From positions 1 through 62,181 of the forward strand of contig JAFEFT010000026.1 in NCBI GenBank assembly GCA_018240435.1: a DNA stretch of 62,181 nucleotides. The letters run 5' to 3'. This DNA is from Pseudomonadota bacterium (GTDB taxonomy: Bacteria > Pseudomonadota > Gammaproteobacteria > Xanthomonadales > Xanthomonadaceae). Below, in pieces: positions 1 to 62,181 of this stretch (position 1 is its first letter; each line of letters starts with the position of its first letter). Both the position numbers and the translations under genes were made by a program. The notes beneath the pieces are model-generated. The model made no database searches. It saw only the letters and a list, made by a program, of their open reading frames with translations, and was not told where the DNA came from.

Positions 1-42
1 TCCCGACTCCCGACTCCCGACTGCCGATTCCCGATTCCCGGA
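1..42. repeat. 7-bp tandem repeat (TCCCGAC-type)
   Basis: Six consecutive heptamers: three exact TCCCGAC units followed by TGCCGAT, TCCCGAT and a partial TCCCGGA. The array ends just before the start of the ABC transporter gene and may continue leftwards outside the window. Unrelated 7-bp arrays also follow gyrB, so this looks like a genome-wide style of intergenic repeat. Confidence 0.8.
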
Positions 43-2151: not shown

Positions 2152-3189
2152 TCAGTTGCCGGGATTGAACACGAAGGTGCGGGTGCCGGTGACCGCCTCG
2201 CCGGGCGCTTCGAACTTCCACTTGCGGATCGCGTCGAGCGCCGCACCATCGAACACGCGCCTGGGATTGGAACGCACCACCGATGCGCCGGTGACGCTGC
2301 CATCGGCGCTGACGGTGAACGACACCGTCACTTCGCCGGCCAGATTGTCGCGCAAGGCCGCGCGCGGATACTCCGGCTGCACGCTGCTGACCACCGGCGG
2401 CAGCGACCCCGGCGCCCGGGTCGGCTTGGGCGGCGGTGGCGGCGGCGTCACGTGCTCGGGCGACGCGGCCGCGGCCGGCGGCGGCGTTGCCGGCGACGCG
2501 GCCGGATGGGTCTGCGCCGATTGCGCCGGATGGGCCGCCGGCGACGACGTCGTCGCGACGTGCTCGGGCGAGGCGGCTGTTTGCTGCTGTTGCTGCTGTT
2601 GCTGCTGCTGCTGGAGTTTGGCGGCCTGTGCGGCCTTGTCGGCGGCGGCTTTCTTTTCCAGATCGTCCTGCGCCTTCTTTGCCGCGGCCTGTTGTTGCTG
2701 GAGTTCGGCGGCGGCCTCCTTTTGCATCATCGCGCGCAGACGCGGCAACGACGGTGCATTGGCATCGACGCGTTCGAGCAGGGCGAAGATGCGTGCGGCT
2801 TCCTGGCGACCGGCTTCATCGCCTTTCTTCAGATTCTGCTCGGTGGCGATCATCGCGTACGGGAACAGGTCGGTCAGTGCCGACTTCACGCTCTCGTCAT
2901 TGGGATTGCGGGCGCGCAGTTGCAGGTAGTACTCGATGGCGTTGTTGCCCGCCGGCGCATACAGGCGCTTTTCGTTTTCGGCGGTCTTGGCCTTGGTCAG
3001 CAAGTCGGCGTCGGTGTCGACATGCTCGGCCGGTGCGGTCGCCGCGGTCGCCGCCGATGGCGCAGCCGCGCCCGAGGCCGCCGGCGCTTCCGGTGTCTTC
3101 TTGTGACAGCCGGCGATACCCATGGCAGCGATGATCGCGGCGGCCAGCGCCGCATGTTTCCAGCCAGCCTTGAATCCGACTTGCGTCAT
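2152..3189 (-). CDS. TonB C-terminal-domain lipoprotein with polyglutamine tract
   Basis: A 345-residue protein. The N-terminal hydrophobic segment ends in a lipobox IAGC with His at +2, so it is predicted to be lipidated. A middle region (about residues 60-150) resembles a helical repeat or coiled coil. It is followed by an 11-glutamine run encoded by mixed CAG/CAA codons (2581-2613), a Pro/Ala/Ser-rich linker, and a C-terminal TonB domain of about 85 residues with the typical YPRAALRDNLAGEVTVSF start. The ATG at 3189 is preferred over 3201 because GGAGGG lies about 4-5 nt upstream of it. A lipid-anchored TonB domain is unusual. The protein may instead act as a periplasmic or outer-membrane partner rather than a true energy transducer. 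Confidence 0.8.
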   Translation of the reverse strand: MTQVGFKAGWKHAALAAAIIAAMGIAGCHKKTPEAPAASGAAAPSAATAATAPAEHVDTDADLLTKAKTAENEKRLYAPAGNNAIEYYLQLRARNPNDESVKSALTDLFPYAMIATEQNLKKGDEAGRQEAARIFALLERVDANAPSLPRLRAMMQKEAAAELQQQQAAAKKAQDDLEKKAAADKAAQAAKLQQQQQQQQQQQTAASPEHVATTSSPAAHPAQSAQTHPAASPATPPPAAAASPEHVTPPPPPPKPTRAPGSLPPVVSSVQPEYPRAALRDNLAGEVTVSFTVSADGSVTGASVVRSNPRRVFDGAALDAIRKWKFEAPGEAVTGTRTFVFNPGN

Positions 3190-3373
3190 GGAACCCTCCA
3201 TCGCGATTGGGCGGATGACCGAGTTTAACCAGATTTTTCGTCGATGGTGTGCTCGATTTCACGGGATGGCGAACCGGCGGCCGGATCGACACCGCGAGCC
3301 GCGCTCCCTGACTGCGGGCGCTGGCCGCCGCGGCAACGCCCCCGATGGCCGCGCCTGCGCCCTTGCCGCTGCG

Positions 3374-4735
3374 TCACTTGCCGATGCAGAAGCCGGCGAA
3401 GATGGCGCCGAGCAGCGCATCGCTGTCGACGACGCCGGTGATTTCATCCAGTGCACGCTGTGCCAGCCGCAGCTCCTCGGCCGCCAGTTCGCCCGCGCGG
3501 TCGATCCGCAGGCGGATGGCGGCCTGCCGAAGCTGTTCGCCGACCCGGCGCAGCGCCTCGACGTGGCGGGCGCGGGCGCTGAAGTCGCCGGCGCCAGCGC
3601 CGGCGCCGGCGCCGCCGGCTGCCACGTGCAAGCGCCGGCGCAACTCGTCCAGGCCGCTGCCGTCGCGCACGCTGATCCACAGGCCGTCGGGCGCAGCCAG
3701 TTCGGCAACGGGCAAGCGCCGATCGTCGGGCACCAGGTCGGCCTTGTTGTACAGCCACCAGACCGCCTTGGCCTCGGCCAATTCGGCGATCAGACTCGCC
3801 GGCACCGGCGCGCTGCCATCGACGACCGCCAGCACGAGGTCGGCTGCCTGCCATTCGGCGCGAGCGCGGCGCACCCCTTCGCGTTCGATGGCATCGACCG
3901 ATGCGCGCAGGCCGGCAGTATCGGCCAAGGTCAGCTCGACGCCATCGACGACGATCGCCTCGCGCAGCACATCGCGGGTAGTGCCGGCCTGGGCGGTGAC
4001 GATGGCGCGCTCGAAACCGGCCAGAGCGTTGAGCAGGCTCGACTTGCCGGCGTTGGGCGCGCCGACGATGGCCACGTGCAGGCCATCGCGCAGGCGGCGG
4101 CCGCGCGCGGCGTCGAGCAACAAGGCATCGTGTTCGGCGATCACCGCATCGAGCCGGCGCATCAATTCGGCATCGGCGAGAAAGTCGATTTCCTCCTCGG
4201 GGAAGTCGATGGCCGCTTCGACATGCACGCGCAGCGCCGTCAGCGCCGCCTGCAAGGCGGTCACGCGGCGCGAGAAGACGCCGTCCAGCGCGCGTCGGGC
4301 CGCACGCGCGGCCGCTTCGCTGCCGGCGGCGATGAGGTCGGCCACCGCCTCGGCCTGAGCCAGGTCGAGGCGGCCGTTGCGATAGGCCCGTTCGGTGAAT
4401 TCACCGGGCCGTGCCGACCGCGCACCGGCCTGAAGACAGCACCGCAGCAGCCATGCCAGCAACACCGGGTTGCCGTGGGCTTGCAGTTCGACGACATCCT
4501 CGCCGGTATACGAATGCGGCGCTGGAAACGCCAACACGATGCCATCGTCGATGATCTCACGGCGATCATCGCGAAAAATGACATGGCTAGCGTAGCGCGG
4601 CCGCAGCCGCCGGCCGCTGAGGGCGGCGCCGATCGCCAACGCCTGCGGGCCGGACAGACGCACCACTCCGATGCCACCGCGACCATTGGCGGTGGCGATC
4701 GCGGCGATGGTGTCGCTGCCGGTATGGTCGGTCAT
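3374..4735 (-). CDS. mnmE: tRNA uridine-5-carboxymethylaminomethyl(34) synthesis GTPase MnmE
   Basis: MnmE works with MnmG to modify the wobble uridine of certain tRNAs. The 453-residue length is normal. The N-terminal folate-binding domain begins with DTIAAIAT and contains the GRGGIGVVRLSG stretch. The inserted G domain has G1 GAPNAGKS, G3 DTAGL and G4 NKAD, and the protein ends in the catalytic CIGK motif. It is the last gene of the leftward rpmH-rnpA-yidC-mnmE group, starting 22 nt after yidC. The motif set makes the identification secure. Confidence 0.97.
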   Translation of the reverse strand: MTDHTGSDTIAAIATANGRGGIGVVRLSGPQALAIGAALSGRRLRPRYASHVIFRDDRREIIDDGIVLAFPAPHSYTGEDVVELQAHGNPVLLAWLLRCCLQAGARSARPGEFTERAYRNGRLDLAQAEAVADLIAAGSEAAARAARRALDGVFSRRVTALQAALTALRVHVEAAIDFPEEEIDFLADAELMRRLDAVIAEHDALLLDAARGRRLRDGLHVAIVGAPNAGKSSLLNALAGFERAIVTAQAGTTRDVLREAIVVDGVELTLADTAGLRASVDAIEREGVRRARAEWQAADLVLAVVDGSAPVPASLIAELAEAKAVWWLYNKADLVPDDRRLPVAELAAPDGLWISVRDGSGLDELRRRLHVAAGGAGAGAGAGDFSARARHVEALRRVGEQLRQAAIRLRIDRAGELAAEELRLAQRALDEITGVVDSDALLGAIFAGFCIGK

Positions 4736-57677: not shown

Positions 57678-58688
57678 TCAGCGCCGCCTATCGAGCGGGC
57701 TGCGCACGCCGCTGGCACCGCGTCCGAGCACATGCGTGTAGATCTGCGTCGTCGCCACGTCCTTGTGCCCGAGCAATTCCTGCACGGTGCGGATGTCGTA
57801 GCCATCCTCCAGCAGGTGGGTGGCGAACGAATGGCGCAAGCTGTGGCAGGTGGCTGGCTTGGTGATGTGGGCGCGCTGCACCGCCGCCTTCACCGCGCGT
57901 TGCAATGTCGACTCGTCGATGTGATGGCGGCGCACACGGCCATCGATCGGGTCGTGGCTGCGTGCCGCCGCCGGAAACACGTACTGCCACTCCCATTGCC
58001 GCGCCGCGTTCGGGAATTTGCGCGCCAGCGCGTTGGGAAGCCACACCGCGCCGTGGCCCGCGGCCAGATCGCGCTCGTGGACTTGCCGCACCTGCTGCAG
58101 ATGCGTGCGCAATTCGCTTTTGAGCGATGCCGGCAGGATCGTGCGCCGATCCTTGCCGCCCTTGCCTTCCCGCACGACGATCTCGCCCATCACGAAATCG
58201 ACATCCTTCACCCGTAGCCGCAAGCATTCCATCAAGCGCAGCCCCGAACCGTACAACAGCCCCGCCATCAGCGCCGACACACCTTCGATCTGCGCCAGCA
58301 CCGCCGCGACCTCGGTGCGATCGAGCACCACCGGCAATCGCCGCGGCCGCTTCGCGCGCTGGATGTCGTCCATCCACGGCAAATCACTGCCGAGCACCTC
58401 GCGATACAGGAACAGCAACGCCGCCAGCGCCTGATTCTGCGTCGACGGCGCGACCCGATCGCACGTGGCCAGCCGAGTCAGAAATGCCTCGACCTCGCGC
58501 TCGCCCATGTCGCGTGGGTGCCGCTTGCCATTGGCGAGGATGAAGCGACGAATCCAGCCGACATAGGCTTGCTCCGTCCGCAGCGCCCGCCCAAGTCGCC
58601 GCATCCGCGCACTTACTTCGTCCAACAGCTTCGGCGGTTTCCCGCGGGCTGCGGTCGTCGTCGGACGGGTAGGGCGGGGCGGATCCAT
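57678..58688 (-). CDS. intI: Integron integrase (IntI-type tyrosine recombinase)
   Basis: A site-specific tyrosine recombinase of 336 residues from the ATG at 58688 (a TTG at 58718 would add ten). Catalytic residues are present: Arg in [16 protein letters not shown], Lys in [10 protein letters not shown], His and Arg in [13 protein letters not shown], and Tyr in TTQIYTHVL. The integron-specific patch between the box regions is clear: [19 protein letters not shown], which distinguishes IntI from phage and XerC/D recombinases. It is transcribed away from the cassette array, the canonical integron orientation. A functional protein is likely because no frame or motif is broken. Confidence 0.97.
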
Positions 58689-58718
58689 GGCATCTGCTCG
58701 AAGCGGGATATGCCGCAA

Positions 58719-58855
58719 CGCTACATTCCACGACTACACCCCGCTATCGGCTTTTGACGGGATTGGGTGTAGGATTTTTCCCACACCCGCCGCTGGCCCC
58801 GCCGCACCACATCGCATGTCGACACGCCAGCTTCGAACCGAATAGATAGTTAGGC
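58719..58855. other. attI site and integron leader
   Basis: The 137-bp leader between intI and the first cassette ends in the simple-site core GTTAGGC (58849-58855), where recombination occurs between G58849 and T58850. It also contains ACACCC at 58736 and an inverted pair GGGTGT (58765) / ACACCC (58783), potential accessory integrase-binding sites. No strong Pc promoter is recognised by eye. Confidence 0.75.
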
Positions 58856-58869
58856 ATACGTGTTACGTC

Positions 58870-59211
58870 ATGGCACCTGAAACAGCCCTTGGCATCGTCG
58901 TCGTAGCGGCTTTGGTACTGAGCATTGTCGTCAAGCTCGTGCCAAAGCGCCGCCCTGCCACGAAGATCTTTACGTGCTCACGCTGTCGCGCGGTAACACC
59001 CCACAACAATCGCACCATCGAGGCGTGGCGCAACGGCAAGACCAAGTTCTATTGTCAAGCCTGTCATGCCGTCTGGCTGCAAAGTCATCCACCCCACGAG
59101 CGCCCACAATCCGGGCTGCGTTCTTCTTCCGGCAACACGGGCTGCCTCGGCTTCGCAGTCTTATTCGCACTTGTTCCGCTAAGCGGCTTGCTCACCTGGC
59201 TGTATGCCTAA
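58870..59211 (+). CDS. Cassette 1: membrane protein with zinc-ribbon-like motif
   Basis: A 113-residue protein. An N-terminal helix (TALGIVVVAALVLSIVVKLV), a CSRC - CQAC pair spaced as in a zinc ribbon (residues about 36-65), and a C-terminal helix (LGFAVLFALVPLSGLLTWLY). It starts 20 bp after the attI junction and its stop lies inside the R'' box of attC1, typical for cassette genes. The function is unknown. It is the cassette closest to attI and therefore the likeliest to be expressed. Confidence 0.85.
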   Translation: MAPETALGIVVVAALVLSIVVKLVPKRRPATKIFTCSRCRAVTPHNNRTIEAWRNGKTKFYCQACHAVWLQSHPPHERPQSGLRSSSGNTGCLGFAVLFALVPLSGLLTWLYA

Positions 59212-59299
59212 CTATGCGCTCAAGCGGACCTGCGCGGAGTAAGCTGCTCGCTCGACCACACATCCCGGCCGCGCAGGCCGCTTAGCTTGGGCGTTAGGT
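59206..59299 (+). repeat. attC site of cassette 1
   Basis: R'' GCCTAAC at 59206 and R' GTTAGGT at 59293, with inner arms CAAGCGG and CCGCTTAG and stem CCTGCGCGG / CCGCGCAGG. The recombination point is between 59293 and 59294. Confidence 0.93.
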
Positions 59300-59302
59300 G
59301 CC

Positions 59303-59860
59303 ATGAACCGTCTGCTCGCGATTACGCTTTCACTTCTGTTAGCGCTCACACCGTCCGCGATGTGTGCGGCATCCGAGACAACGATTCAAACGCCGGAGGG
59401 CCCCGTCACTACAGCCAAGAAGACTGTGGCGGCGACGCCGCAGAAGATTGAGCTAGTAGGCGCGAGGAAGCGGCTTGCGTTTGACGCGTCAGCGCGCCAA
59501 GCACGTGAATTTGTCCAGGCGTATCTTCCGGGAATCTCAAATCCTTCACTCGGGGACTTCGACAAGGCCTTTGGTCTCTGGCAAGAGGAAAAGGATCGCC
59601 GCTATACAGAGCGCCAAGTCATAGATCTTCTTGGAGCTTACCTCGGCAATCGTCTCGCCGCGGACTTTCAGATGGAGTGGGTCACGGTTACGGACCGGGA
59701 CGGCGCGGACTTCGCGGTTAGAGCAAAGAAAGCAGAAGTGATGGCGTTCCCATTCTCATCCGTAGCGAAACGAATTCAGGCCAATCAGCACGACTTCATG
59801 GTTGGTGTGTACTTCACTGTTCAGCACACACTCGCAAGCGGCGACTACAGGGCAAGGTAG
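59303..59860 (+). CDS. Cassette 2: secreted protein (DUF3806-like?)
   Basis: A 185-residue protein with a signal peptide (LLAITLSLLLALTPSAMC, cleavage near CAAS). The mature part has DFDKAFGLWQEEKDRRYTER, VIDLLGAYLGNRLAADFQMEW and AFPFSSVAKRIQANQHDF, a pattern reminiscent of DUF3806, which I name only tentatively. It starts 10 bp after the cassette boundary. This is the largest cassette in view. The function is unknown. Confidence 0.85.
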   Translation: MNRLLAITLSLLLALTPSAMCAASETTIQTPEGPVTTAKKTVAATPQKIELVGARKRLAFDASARQAREFVQAYLPGISNPSLGDFDKAFGLWQEEKDRRYTERQVIDLLGAYLGNRLAADFQMEWVTVTDRDGADFAVRAKKAEVMAFPFSSVAKRIQANQHDFMVGVYFTVQHTLASGDYRAR

Positions 59861-59869
59861 TAAAGCGGC

Positions 59870-59964
59870 ACCTAACTAGGCGCTCAAGCGGACCTGCGCG
59901 GAGTAAGCTACTCGCCAAAATCACACATCCCGGCCGCGCAGGCCGCTTAGCTTAGGCGTTAGGG
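59870..59964 (+). repeat. attC site of cassette 2
   Basis: R'' ACCTAAC at 59870 and R' GTTAGGG at 59958. R'' is the exact complement of the first bases of its own cassette (TTAGGT), the mark of an intact circularisable cassette. Confidence 0.93.
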
Positions 59965-59976
59965 CACACGGACACT

Positions 59977-60284
59977 ATGAAGCCGAAAACAACTTGGTTG
60001 CTCGTCGCGCTGGCGCTCTTTGCAATTTCAGTATTCGGCTCTTTTTCTGGCAACTCCAAGGTTGCATTCATTAGCTTTCATATCGCTTTTTGCGGGCTAC
60101 CGACCGCTCTGGTCATTGTTCAATTGGCCACGCGTCACGCCATTTCGCGTTGGGTCCAGACTACCCACGAACCACCCACCCAGTCTGGTTCTGGGTAAGC
60201 ACATGCTTGTATGCCGCGTTTTCCGTGTCGGCAGTTAGCGTCGCAGTTCAAGAGGCAGGCAGTTCCGGCATCTTTGCGCCCTAA
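59977..60284 (+). pseudogene. Cassette 3: frameshifted membrane protein
   Basis: The ATG at 59977 opens a 73-residue frame ending at 60198 (KPKTTWLLVALALFAISVFG, membrane helix 2 near CGLPTALVIVQLA). A second frame then continues to 60284, ending exactly at the R'' box with a further helix-like stretch (HPVWFWVSTCLYAAFSVSA). Cassette genes normally end at attC, so the two frames probably derive from one three-helix protein broken by a 1-nt deletion in the ACCCACCC run near 60175. A sequencing error in that run is the alternative. Confidence 0.65.
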
Positions 60285-60372
60285 CTAAGCGCTCAAGCGG
60301 ACCGTGCGGACGAAGCTGCCCGCTTGTACCATGCATCGTCGGCCGCACGGCCGCTTAGCTTAGGCGTTAGCT
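60279..60372 (+). repeat. attC site of cassette 3
   Basis: R'' CCCTAAC at 60279 and R' GTTAGCT at 60366. The stem changed to CCGTGCGG / CCGCACGG, a compensated pair of substitutions relative to attC1. Confidence 0.93.
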
Positions 60373-60377
60373 CTCAT

Positions 60378-60746
60378 ATGCGTACTGCAGCAAGCGTTGG
60401 GTTACTTTTCGGCACGCTGTTCGTCATCGTCTATTGCTATACGTGCTGGTTTATTGGCCTGCATTTCACATGGTCTTACTTGCCAGGCTTTGCATGGCCA
60501 CTCTTGCCTGCCTCTTTGGTCGCTGGCATCGCAGCATTGGCTTTTTTTCTCGGCATTCGCACCGCGTCGTCGCGGCACTCGCCACTTGCAGTCATATGTT
60601 TCGCCGTCGCCCTGTTCCCCACACTCACCATCTCTAACAAGTTGTTCTTGCCTGGTCTTTGGCCGCCTTTGCTGTTCATGGCACTTGTAGCGTTCGTCTT
60701 TGGTCGCTTGGGCAAAGCGGCATCACCACAGGTCCCGGCGAGCTAA
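60378..60746 (+). CDS. Cassette 4: four-helix membrane protein
   Basis: A 122-residue hydrophobic protein with about four helices (SVGLLFGTLFVIVYCYTCW, LLPASLVAGIAALAFFLGI, LAVICFAVALFPTL and LLFMALVAFVFGRLG). The ATG lies 12 bp after the cassette boundary and the TAA lies within the R'' box of attC4. No known domain was recognised. It could be a small transporter, an immunity-like or a phage-defence membrane protein, with no evidence to choose. Confidence 0.82.
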   Translation: MRTAASVGLLFGTLFVIVYCYTCWFIGLHFTWSYLPGFAWPLLPASLVAGIAALAFFLGIRTASSRHSPLAVICFAVALFPTLTISNKLFLPGLWPPLLFMALVAFVFGRLGKAASPQVPAS

Positions 60747-60835
60747 CTATGCGCTCAAGCGGACCTGCGCGGTGTAAGCTGCTCGCTCGATCACACAATC
60801 CTGGCCGCGCAGGCCGCTTAGCTTAGACGTTAGGC
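60741..60835 (+). repeat. attC site of cassette 4
   Basis: R'' AGCTAAC at 60741 and R' GTTAGGC at 60829. R'' complements the cassette's own 5' edge (TTAGCT), again self-consistent. Confidence 0.93.
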
Positions 60836-60843
60836 GTGAGACA

Positions 60844-60969
60844 GTGGATGTTGGTCATTGGACGCTGCTTGGCGCGCTTTTCGTGTTTGGCTCCATTGCG
60901 TGCCAGTGGCTCTTCGGTTGGCTTCAGGCGACGTGTCGTGCTTCGGACAGATTCACGGTGGGCTTGTAG
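60844..60969 (+). CDS. Cassette 5: doubtful short ORF in a degenerate cassette
   Basis: A GTG at 60844, 14 bp after the cassette boundary, gives a 41-residue frame containing a helix-like GHWTLLGALFVFGSIACQWL before a TAG at 60967. The remaining 200 bp of the cassette has no frame that both starts well and ends at attC5. Other open frames run through the attC site or have odd composition. A decayed gene is more likely than an intact short one. Confidence 0.3.
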   Translation: MDVGHWTLLGALFVFGSIACQWLFGWLQATCRASDRFTVGL

Positions 60970-61176
60970 GGCTGGGCTTCGTTGGGCATCTTTGCGCTTC
61001 GGAAGGTTCGATGAGGCTTTCAATCCTCGGCTTCGGTGCGCTCGGATGTGCTTCGGCTGGCAATTGCAGCGCGTTGGCCGAATCGGCTTCGGAGCACAGC
61101 CGGCTGGCGTTGGGTTGGCGTTCGCTTCGTCTGGCATCGCTGCTGGCTGGGAGTGCATCGCGCTCTCACTGCTATC

Positions 61177-61269
61177 GCCTAACTACTCGCTCAAGCGGAC
61201 TGTGCGGGTGAAGTTTCCGAGTAAAATCAATCATCGCGGCCGCACAGCCGCTTAGCTCAGGCGTTAGGC
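61177..61269 (+). repeat. attC site of cassette 5
   Basis: R'' GCCTAAC at 61177 and R' GTTAGGC at 61263. The stem reads CTGTGCGG / CCGCACAG, a different compensated variant. It is the most divergent attC of the set in its central spacer. Confidence 0.93.
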
Positions 61270-61274
61270 TCCAA

Positions 61275-61616
61275 ATGTTGGATCCCAGTCCACTCGAAAA
61301 CGTTATAAGCACGAGAGAACTCACGTTCACTCGCGTCGATGGTGTCGTAGAAGAAGTGATCGTTGCTATTTCTGCGCCGATGCAGATCGAAAATGACTAC
61401 TGGCAATGCCCCTACATCATCAAGGGCGAGTCATTCGCAAAGCAGTTTCGCATGGCAGGCGGCGATTCGATGCAAGCGCTCGTTCACACCGTCCGCATCA
61501 TTGCCGTAGAGCTTGATGCTCTTGCGCGTCACCACAAAGGCACGTTCCACTACTTCGGCCAGGCGGACACCATGTTCCCCAAGTGGGTGCCTGCTCTAGC
61601 GGAGCACGGAGCCTAA
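61275..61616 (+). CDS. Cassette 6: soluble protein of unknown function
   Basis: A 113-residue soluble protein starting 11 bp into the cassette and ending within attC6. Conserved-looking stretches include QIENDYWQCPYIIKGESFAK and GGDSMQALVHTVRIIAVELDA. The pattern resembles small proteins often found in integron cassettes (a DUF6968-like family in memory, unverified). There is no signal peptide or helix. It is the only clearly cytosolic cassette product here. Confidence 0.82.
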   Translation: MLDPSPLENVISTRELTFTRVDGVVEEVIVAISAPMQIENDYWQCPYIIKGESFAKQFRMAGGDSMQALVHTVRIIAVELDALARHHKGTFHYFGQADTMFPKWVPALAEHGA

Positions 61617-61704
61617 CTATGCGCTCAAGCGGACCTGCGCGGAGTAAGCTGCTCGCGCGATCACACGTTGCGGCCGCGCAGGCCGCTTAGCTTAGGCGTT
61701 AGGC
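61611..61704 (+). repeat. attC site of cassette 6
   Basis: R'' GCCTAAC at 61611 and R' GTTAGGC at 61698. The arms are almost identical to those of attC1. Confidence 0.93.
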
Positions 61705-62044
61705 TTGCAAGAGCCGGCTTCTGTCTTTCGGTCAAGTCGCAAGCGTCTCGTCCATCGCACGATCGCCGCTCGTGCTTCGCACCAGCTAGGTTCCGCACAT
61801 CCTCATCGCGACTTTCCTGTTGCGTTCAATTTATCGTGCTCCGCCGCCCGTGCTGCGCACCGGCTCAGCTCATTGCGTAGCCGTCACGTTCCCTATTCAA
61901 GCGTTCTTCGGCCGAGCGCAGTTCGCGGCCAAGCTGCTCCAGGCTCCAGTTCGCTTCGGCTGTTTCCCGGGTCGTCTTGCGCTGCTATCGTTTGCACCAA
62001 GAGCGCGTCTTCTTGCACCGCTTTCGCTCCGTGCTGGCCAGCAA
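61705..62044 (+). other. Cassette 7: no convincing gene
   Basis: The 434-bp cassette shows no ORF that starts near its 5' edge with an ATG and stops at attC7. The longest plus frames are Arg/Ser/Pro-rich and read through the attC site, and no minus frame exceeds 60 codons. It may be a non-coding or decayed cassette. Confidence 0.6.
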
Positions 62045-62138
62045 GCCTAACTATGCGTTCAAGCGGACCTGCGCGGACGAACTTTCTCGCTCAATCCAAC
62101 ATCGCGGCCGCGCAGGCCGCTTAACTTAGGCGTTAGGC
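62045..62138 (+). repeat. attC site of cassette 7
   Basis: R'' GCCTAAC at 62045 and R' GTTAGGC at 62132. The spacer differs slightly from attC1, but the arms and the extrahelical A are kept. The next cassette begins at 62133 and continues outside the window. Confidence 0.93.
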
Positions 62139-62181
62139 TTGCTTCGTTAATTTTCTGGGCTCTTCGTGGAAACGTGTGGGT

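Follow-up and report, generated by a model that had tools for sequence, protein, structure and literature searches.

The 62,181-bp window analysed here, which is the entire contig of a Lysobacterales draft genome (3.18 Mb in 71 contigs), carries an integron with an integrase gene (intI), an attI site and an array of cassettes that reaches the contig end. Judged by its IntI and attC sites, the integron is of an ordinary, known kind, a typical sedentary and presumably chromosomal integron; what stands out is a class of gene-less cassettes that recurs in other arrays and that cassettes 5 and 7 of this array resemble, a resemblance overlooked by the first-pass annotation of this DNA. From the sequences of its members, we consider it on balance probable that this class consists of mobile promoter cassettes. 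The array appears to be that of a recombination-competent sedentary chromosomal integron of the Lysobacterales in which coding cassettes are mixed with gene-less ones.

An attC model cut 350 cassettes from integron loci (designated by L numbers); attC matches were present in 78 sources, 65 of which yielded a cassette. The 350 include two exact duplicates and a few cassettes in which an attC went undetected (e.g. L085_5599 and L058_3981). Codon periodicity was tested in 338 cassettes (chi2, 6 degrees of freedom), 91 of which fell below 12.6. The gene-less set (n = 22) comprises 20 of the 21 cassettes with at least three CTTCG, less than 18% A and a length of 230–400 nt, L020_1776 having been excluded by eye as coding-like, together with L066_3408 and L067_2618, which were included by eye; removal of six close relatives (three from L032, two from L067, and L068_7515) left 16 representatives. 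All 22 lack codon periodicity (mean chi2 5.7, maximum 11.3, vs 21.4 on average in the remaining 316 cassettes), and their sense strands contain 10–16% A. Of 26 arrays in which five or more cassettes are visible, 7 (the window's own among them) contain similar cassettes. Paralogous gene-less copies occur within single arrays, four in L032 and four in L067, and a Luteimonas/Lysobacter subfamily, the best conserved, comprises 13 copies by profile, 12 of which were used to build that profile. When 99 genomes of the family were searched with the DNA of the L053 member, only six matches of 30–54 bp were returned; the fetched neighbourhoods held no array and one weak attC-model match (21.9 bits, in L131).

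Common to the class is the motif GGCTTCGG(n)CAG, often repeated about 50 bp apart. The set contains 70 CTTCGG where 5.6 are expected (58 vs 53.9 expected in the other 328 cassettes) and a single CCGAAG, an enrichment and a 70:1 strand bias that are both partly circular because CTTCG count and A content were among the criteria by which the set was selected; a strand lean of 58:30 in the other cassettes further tempers the second figure. Two tests are free of this circularity, namely a split of the cassettes by periodicity alone and conservation between paralogues. At least two CTTCGG were present in 22 of the 91 non-periodic cassettes but in only 4 of the 247 periodic ones (4 of 245 once duplicates are removed). 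In the four L032 paralogues, 97.4% of comparisons at CTTCGG positions agree, vs 77.2% elsewhere, and in three L067 copies 100%, vs 80.5%; the corresponding values between loci are 86% and 44%, in an alignment that itself leans on the motif. Spacing is also regular: 19 of 36 successive intervals in the 16 representatives measure 42–58 bp, compared with a random mean of 5.1 and a maximum of 13 in 2000 trials. In the Luteimonas/Lysobacter subfamily, motifs tend to precede a −10-like hexamer by ~48, 100 and 148 bp; at least two of these distances recur in each of L053, L051, L070_2750, L067_8046 and L058_924.

Two candidate identities for the motif were rejected. A genome-wide Chi-like or uptake signal is at odds with the density of GGCTTCGG, which is 0.20/kb on both strands of 445.6 kb of non-array DNA (49 and 41 occurrences per strand, the 87th percentile of 150 permuted 8-mers) vs 6.3/kb in the gene-less set. 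UUCG tetraloop hairpins were discarded with a mean closing-pair probability of 0.022 vs 0.021 with shuffled flanks; the paired rank test (p 2e-5) was taken to reflect a difference in distribution without practical size. Separately, L107 holds two non-periodic paralogous cassettes (3069–3407 and 3467–3798) with a variant motif (GGCTCGGACAAGTG, GGCTTGGACAAGTG), which suggests a drifting form of the same element. Homologous cassettes of 520–540 nt without sense-strand periodicity were also seen in two Xanthomonas (L043 9432–8900 and L059 2142–1626); we take them to recall the reverse-strand symE/sRNA-Xcc1 cassette, going by its published description.

The case for promoters comes from the 3′ ends of these cassettes. 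Six of the 16 representatives have an outward TTGnnn-16..18-TAnnnT pattern within their final 110 nt, always with a 17-bp spacer, and none of the 16 has it in antisense; shuffles gave 0.19 (maximum 2 of 200), and the pattern occurs in 14 of 324 cassettes outside the set (Fisher p 1e-4, with p-values here being optimistic because class members are related). Weight-matrix scores of the gene-less cassettes also exceed those of their own shuffles. Most of 29 gene-less Vibrio cassettes showed sense-strand promoter activity (PMC11014356; this and the other published reports are cited from parts of their text). Close to its 3′ end, each gene-less cassette is proposed to hold a sigma-70-type promoter directed outward, from which the following cassette would be transcribed anew, such that cassettes distant from the array promoter Pc would be independent of it; in the present array, cassette 5 would drive cassette 6. 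Long integrons pose the question of how cassettes far from Pc are expressed. The one-directional GGCTTCGG(n)CAG motifs, found about every 50 bp upstream of the promoter, would then be putative contact sites for a factor that sets its output. A further step, which we regard as rather doubtful, is that these cassettes form a dedicated regulatory class, in which a mobile promoter and GGCTTCGG(n)CAG sites at ~50-bp steps would be read by a putative specific host factor, switching arrays segment by segment and not from Pc alone.

Several observations weigh against a promoter role. The strict pattern is missing in 10 of the 16 representatives, and the weight-matrix score of gene-less cassettes (4.5) is close to that of the others (4.1, p 0.18). 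Within the Luteimonas/Lysobacter subfamily, L070_6245 departs from the 48/100/148 register, as do L075 and cassette 7 outside that subfamily; in L032, the hexamer at the −10 register reads GATGAT. Low periodicity alone is no proof that a gene is absent, because cassettes 1 and 3 of the window are also low (10.8 and 10.2). Within the window itself, no consensus promoter was found between 58500 and 62181 (0, vs 1.3 in shuffles), and neither cassette 5 nor cassette 7 contains the strict TTGnnn-16..18-TAnnnT pattern; the best matrix scores are −1.2 in cassette 5 and 6.4, with a non-consensus −35, in cassette 7. Promoter evidence in the window's own cassettes is thus weak for cassette 7 and absent for cassette 5. 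The Luteimonas/Lysobacter profile also fails to match them (4.6 bits, E 3.7 for cassette 5; cassette 7 unlisted).

Cassettes 5 and 7 are placed in the class because of their composition, their motif and the absence of a clear gene rather than demonstrated descent: both have at most 16% A, no periodicity and at least two sense-strand CTTCGG. Open frames span both cassettes, and the longest of these have no Pfam match. The periodicity of cassette 5 (chi2 1.7) is the lowest of all 338 cassettes and its CTTCGG copies occupy all three frames, which together rule out coding; this cassette is clearly without a protein gene. Cassette 7 is probably without one as well (chi2 8.4, vs 10.8 for coding cassette 1). 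The start of the second cassette in genome G004, from the same genus, aligns to cassette 5 with a score of 50, whereas controls stayed at or below 31 (500 shuffles) and 29 (other cassette starts); the two have one CTTCGG in common, and G004 has another at a position where cassette 5 has CTTCGT. A DNA search with cassette 5 of 299 genomes of the order returned itself and two matches of 25–27 bp only, the G004 relative (cut at ~120 bp, and diverged) not being among them, with G004 perhaps outside the sample, 276 genomes of which are unlisted. A search of 122 other loci with cassette 7 gave no convincing homologue, the best match reaching E 0.008 over 26 bp.

The strand specificity of the motif, in part a product of selection, would also suit transcribed cassettes that act as RNA, either as a regulatory RNA or as a sponge whose single-stranded GGCUUCGG repeats would capture a protein or small RNA, and RNA is listed as a possibility for Vibrio non-coding cassettes (Boucher 2006, PMC1382264). 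We consider this unlikely: sense-strand folding is not in excess (mean z +0.33 in 22 gene-less cassettes vs −0.12 in 22 controls), motif accessibility is 0.436 vs 0.449 with shuffled flanks (p 0.47), no Rfam family reached its gathering score in the window or in six loci bearing gene-less cassettes, and no Rfam match was found in 60830–62181 at E up to 1, although a linear sponge motif would escape the folding, accessibility and Rfam tests. Paralogous copies within one array could instead reflect selfish or inert filler, spread by the integrase alone and with its composition and motif inherited from one ancestor; selfishness has been proposed for Vibrio cassettes (Boucher 2006, PMC1382264). 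We regard this as quite unlikely: inert DNA would not be expected to hold CTTCGG columns at 97–100% while others drift to 77–81%, or to show a non-random placement of outward promoters at the 3′ end. That the cassettes are old pseudogenes or unusual, undetected genes, their low A leaving accidental open frames such as those spanning cassettes 5 and 7, is very improbable: some gene-less Vibrio cassettes are reported to be degraded genes (Blanco 2024), but the longest frames of these two gave no Pfam match, motif copies fall in different frames of one cassette, and paralogues retain the motif with no codon periodicity.

A promoter-cassette role, which we favour over these alternatives, would fit the class into a known functional category, to which it would add a sequence signature and a directional motif array; in a limited search, the available literature yielded no description of either. 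Like the gene-less Vibrionaceae promoter cassettes, the present ones occur several per array (PMC11014356). Activity in the former lies mainly on the sense strand, with start sites away from the 5′ end of the cassette, and their promoters were linked to AT-richness and said to be unidentifiable in silico (PMC11014356). In contrast, the present class has a high G+C and a low A content, its directional motif recurs at intervals, and a predicted promoter is recognisable in 6 of 16 representatives. Non-coding Vibrio cassettes are similarly paralogous within arrays and under apparent purifying selection (PMC1382264), but their homologues exceed 80% identity, whereas members of the present class are far more diverged between species, and the consulted portions of that report describe no motif architecture for them. 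Oral Treponema cassettes resemble the class in lacking open reading frames and have promoter activity (PMC6557892), in integrons whose intI orientation is atypical (as stated in PMC11014356). The sedentary chromosomal integrons of Xanthomonas and other Xanthomonadales share with this one a related integrase and attC and mostly unknown small proteins (PMC12444791). A recurrent ‘empty’ cassette, several per array and possibly a promoter, is mentioned there and may or may not be of the present class; the consulted main text gives no description of its sequence. Among the consulted reports, assays of promoter cassettes are confined to Vibrio and, for a few cassettes, Treponema. With a recognisable gene-less class in another order, one can test whether mobile promoters belong to integron design in general, and the conserved directional motif offers a handle for finding a regulator.

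The integron platform, the attC set and the coding cassettes are demonstrated here, in agreement with the first-pass annotation, which had reported a complete IntI, attI and seven cassettes. IntI scores 486 bits against the TIGR02249 integron integrase model (cut-off 265) and aligns to the solved IntI4 structure 2A3V over residues 43–344 (316 bits), with identical residues at the tyrosine-recombinase R/K/H-R/H/Y positions, which we take to be those of the catalytic motif. The array is divergent from intI, with the integrase gene on the minus strand, the attI core adjoining it and the cassettes on the plus strand. The seven attC sites (93–95 bp) share a mean column identity of 87%, and each bottom strand folds into a hairpin with paired arms (z −2.3 to −4.7). 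The arm motif CTCAAGCGGAC, allowing one mismatch, occurs seven times in the window vs 1.65 expected (0 of 100 shuffles reach seven), and all seven assembly-wide matches to a 22-base right-arm pattern (up to three mismatches) lie in this array. That the array continues past the window, as had been proposed, is borne out as far as the 43 bp after attC7; nothing further follows, the window being the entire contig. The description of the array as uncatalogued-looking holds for this contig but not for the integrase type, as 43 of 60 related genomes (its own included) have a long match to this integrase (E < 1e-77), the remainder having short or weak recombinase matches only. Among the best 80 of 226 relatives, from named genomes, identities are 60–73%; these are mostly from Luteimonas, Stenotrophomonas, Rhodanobacter and other Lysobacterales, with one labelled Gallionella. 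The integrons of Xanthomonas are well documented (PMC12444791).

In three genomes of the same genus, the attI core is preceded at ~65–70 bp by a block, GTAGGATTTTTC (read as TGTAGGATTTTTC in the window and L123; 58768–58780 in the window, near 2611 in L122 and near 2458 in L123), which may belong to Pint, Pc or an integrase arm site. In all four genomes of the genus with a long intI match (G000:C18, G001:C49, G002:C38 and G004:C7), intI lies no more than a few kb from a contig end, which would be expected were assemblies to break at repeated attC sites.

The coding cassettes (Table 1) fit the annotated picture of a sedentary chromosomal integron with small membrane and secreted products, with hydrophobic segments in the proteins of cassettes 1, 2 and 4 and none in that of cassette 6. 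The cassette 1 protein has a sole relative in the 122 other loci, a Pseudoxanthomonas cassette (L020) with 58% amino acid identity; cassettes 2, 3, 4 and 6 have no homologue there at E 1e-3. Outside intI, DUF3806 and DUF6968 alone exceeded the Pfam cut-off, and no resistance or toxin family was found; as annotated, none of the cassette proteins tested matched a resistance family. A suggested link to defence or toxin-antitoxin activity went unsupported by the Pfam and PADLOC profile scans, the latter giving no defence match among seven proteins, cassette 7 frames left out (best E 0.04). That cassette 3 is a broken gene is likewise not established; its 73-residue frame, with two hydrophobic segments and no homologue in the 122 loci, may be intact or truncated.

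Table 1. Features of the integron (window coordinates; aa, amino acids).
Feature	Coordinates	Strand	Description
intI, integron integrase	57678..58718	-	Uninterrupted frame, likely ATG start 58688; TIGR02249, PF00589, PF13495, 2A3V alignment
attI core GTTAGGC	58849..58855	+	Junction to cassette 1; similar core behind intI in L122, L123, L013
Cassette 1 coding sequence	58870..59211	+	113 aa; CxxC pairs between two hydrophobic segments
attC1	59206..59299	+	attC model, bottom-strand folding
Cassette 2 coding sequence	59303..59860	+	185 aa; N-terminal hydrophobic segment (signal-like); DUF3806, PF12713 E 6.7e-13
attC2	59870..59964	+	attC model, bottom-strand folding
Cassette 3 coding sequence	59977..60198	+	73 aa; two hydrophobic segments
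attC3	60279..60372	+	attC model, bottom-strand folding
Cassette 4 coding sequence	60378..60746	+	122 aa; four hydrophobic segments; no family
attC4	60741..60835	+	attC model, bottom-strand folding
Cassette 5, gene-less	60836..61176	+	11% A; CTTCGG at 60912, 60941, 60997, 61031, 61051, 61087
attC5	61177..61269	+	attC model, bottom-strand folding
Cassette 6 coding sequence	61275..61616	+	113 aa; DUF6968, PF22302 E 3.4e-15; no hydrophobic segment
attC6	61611..61704	+	attC model, bottom-strand folding
Cassette 7, probably gene-less	61705..62044	+	13% A; CTTCGG at 61906, 61954 (48 bp apart)
Weak promoter-like TTTCCC-17-TATCGT in cassette 7	61963..61991	+	Weight-matrix score 6.4
attC7	62045..62138	+	attC model, bottom-strand folding
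Cassette 8 start, cut by contig end	62139..62181	+	43 bp beyond attC7

The annotation had also considered that an inactivated IntI, or cassette content identical in all relatives, would mark a fossil array. IntI is intact, and the first cassettes behind attI in L122 (from G004) and L123 (from G002) differ from and do not match cassette 1, which argues against a frozen array; this comparison involves two genomes placed in the same genus, not strains of the same species, and is confined to the start of the arrays because both contigs stop soon after the first cassettes. The first cassette of G004 (L122 2690–3112) seemingly encodes a cupin-like protein, as read from its sequence.

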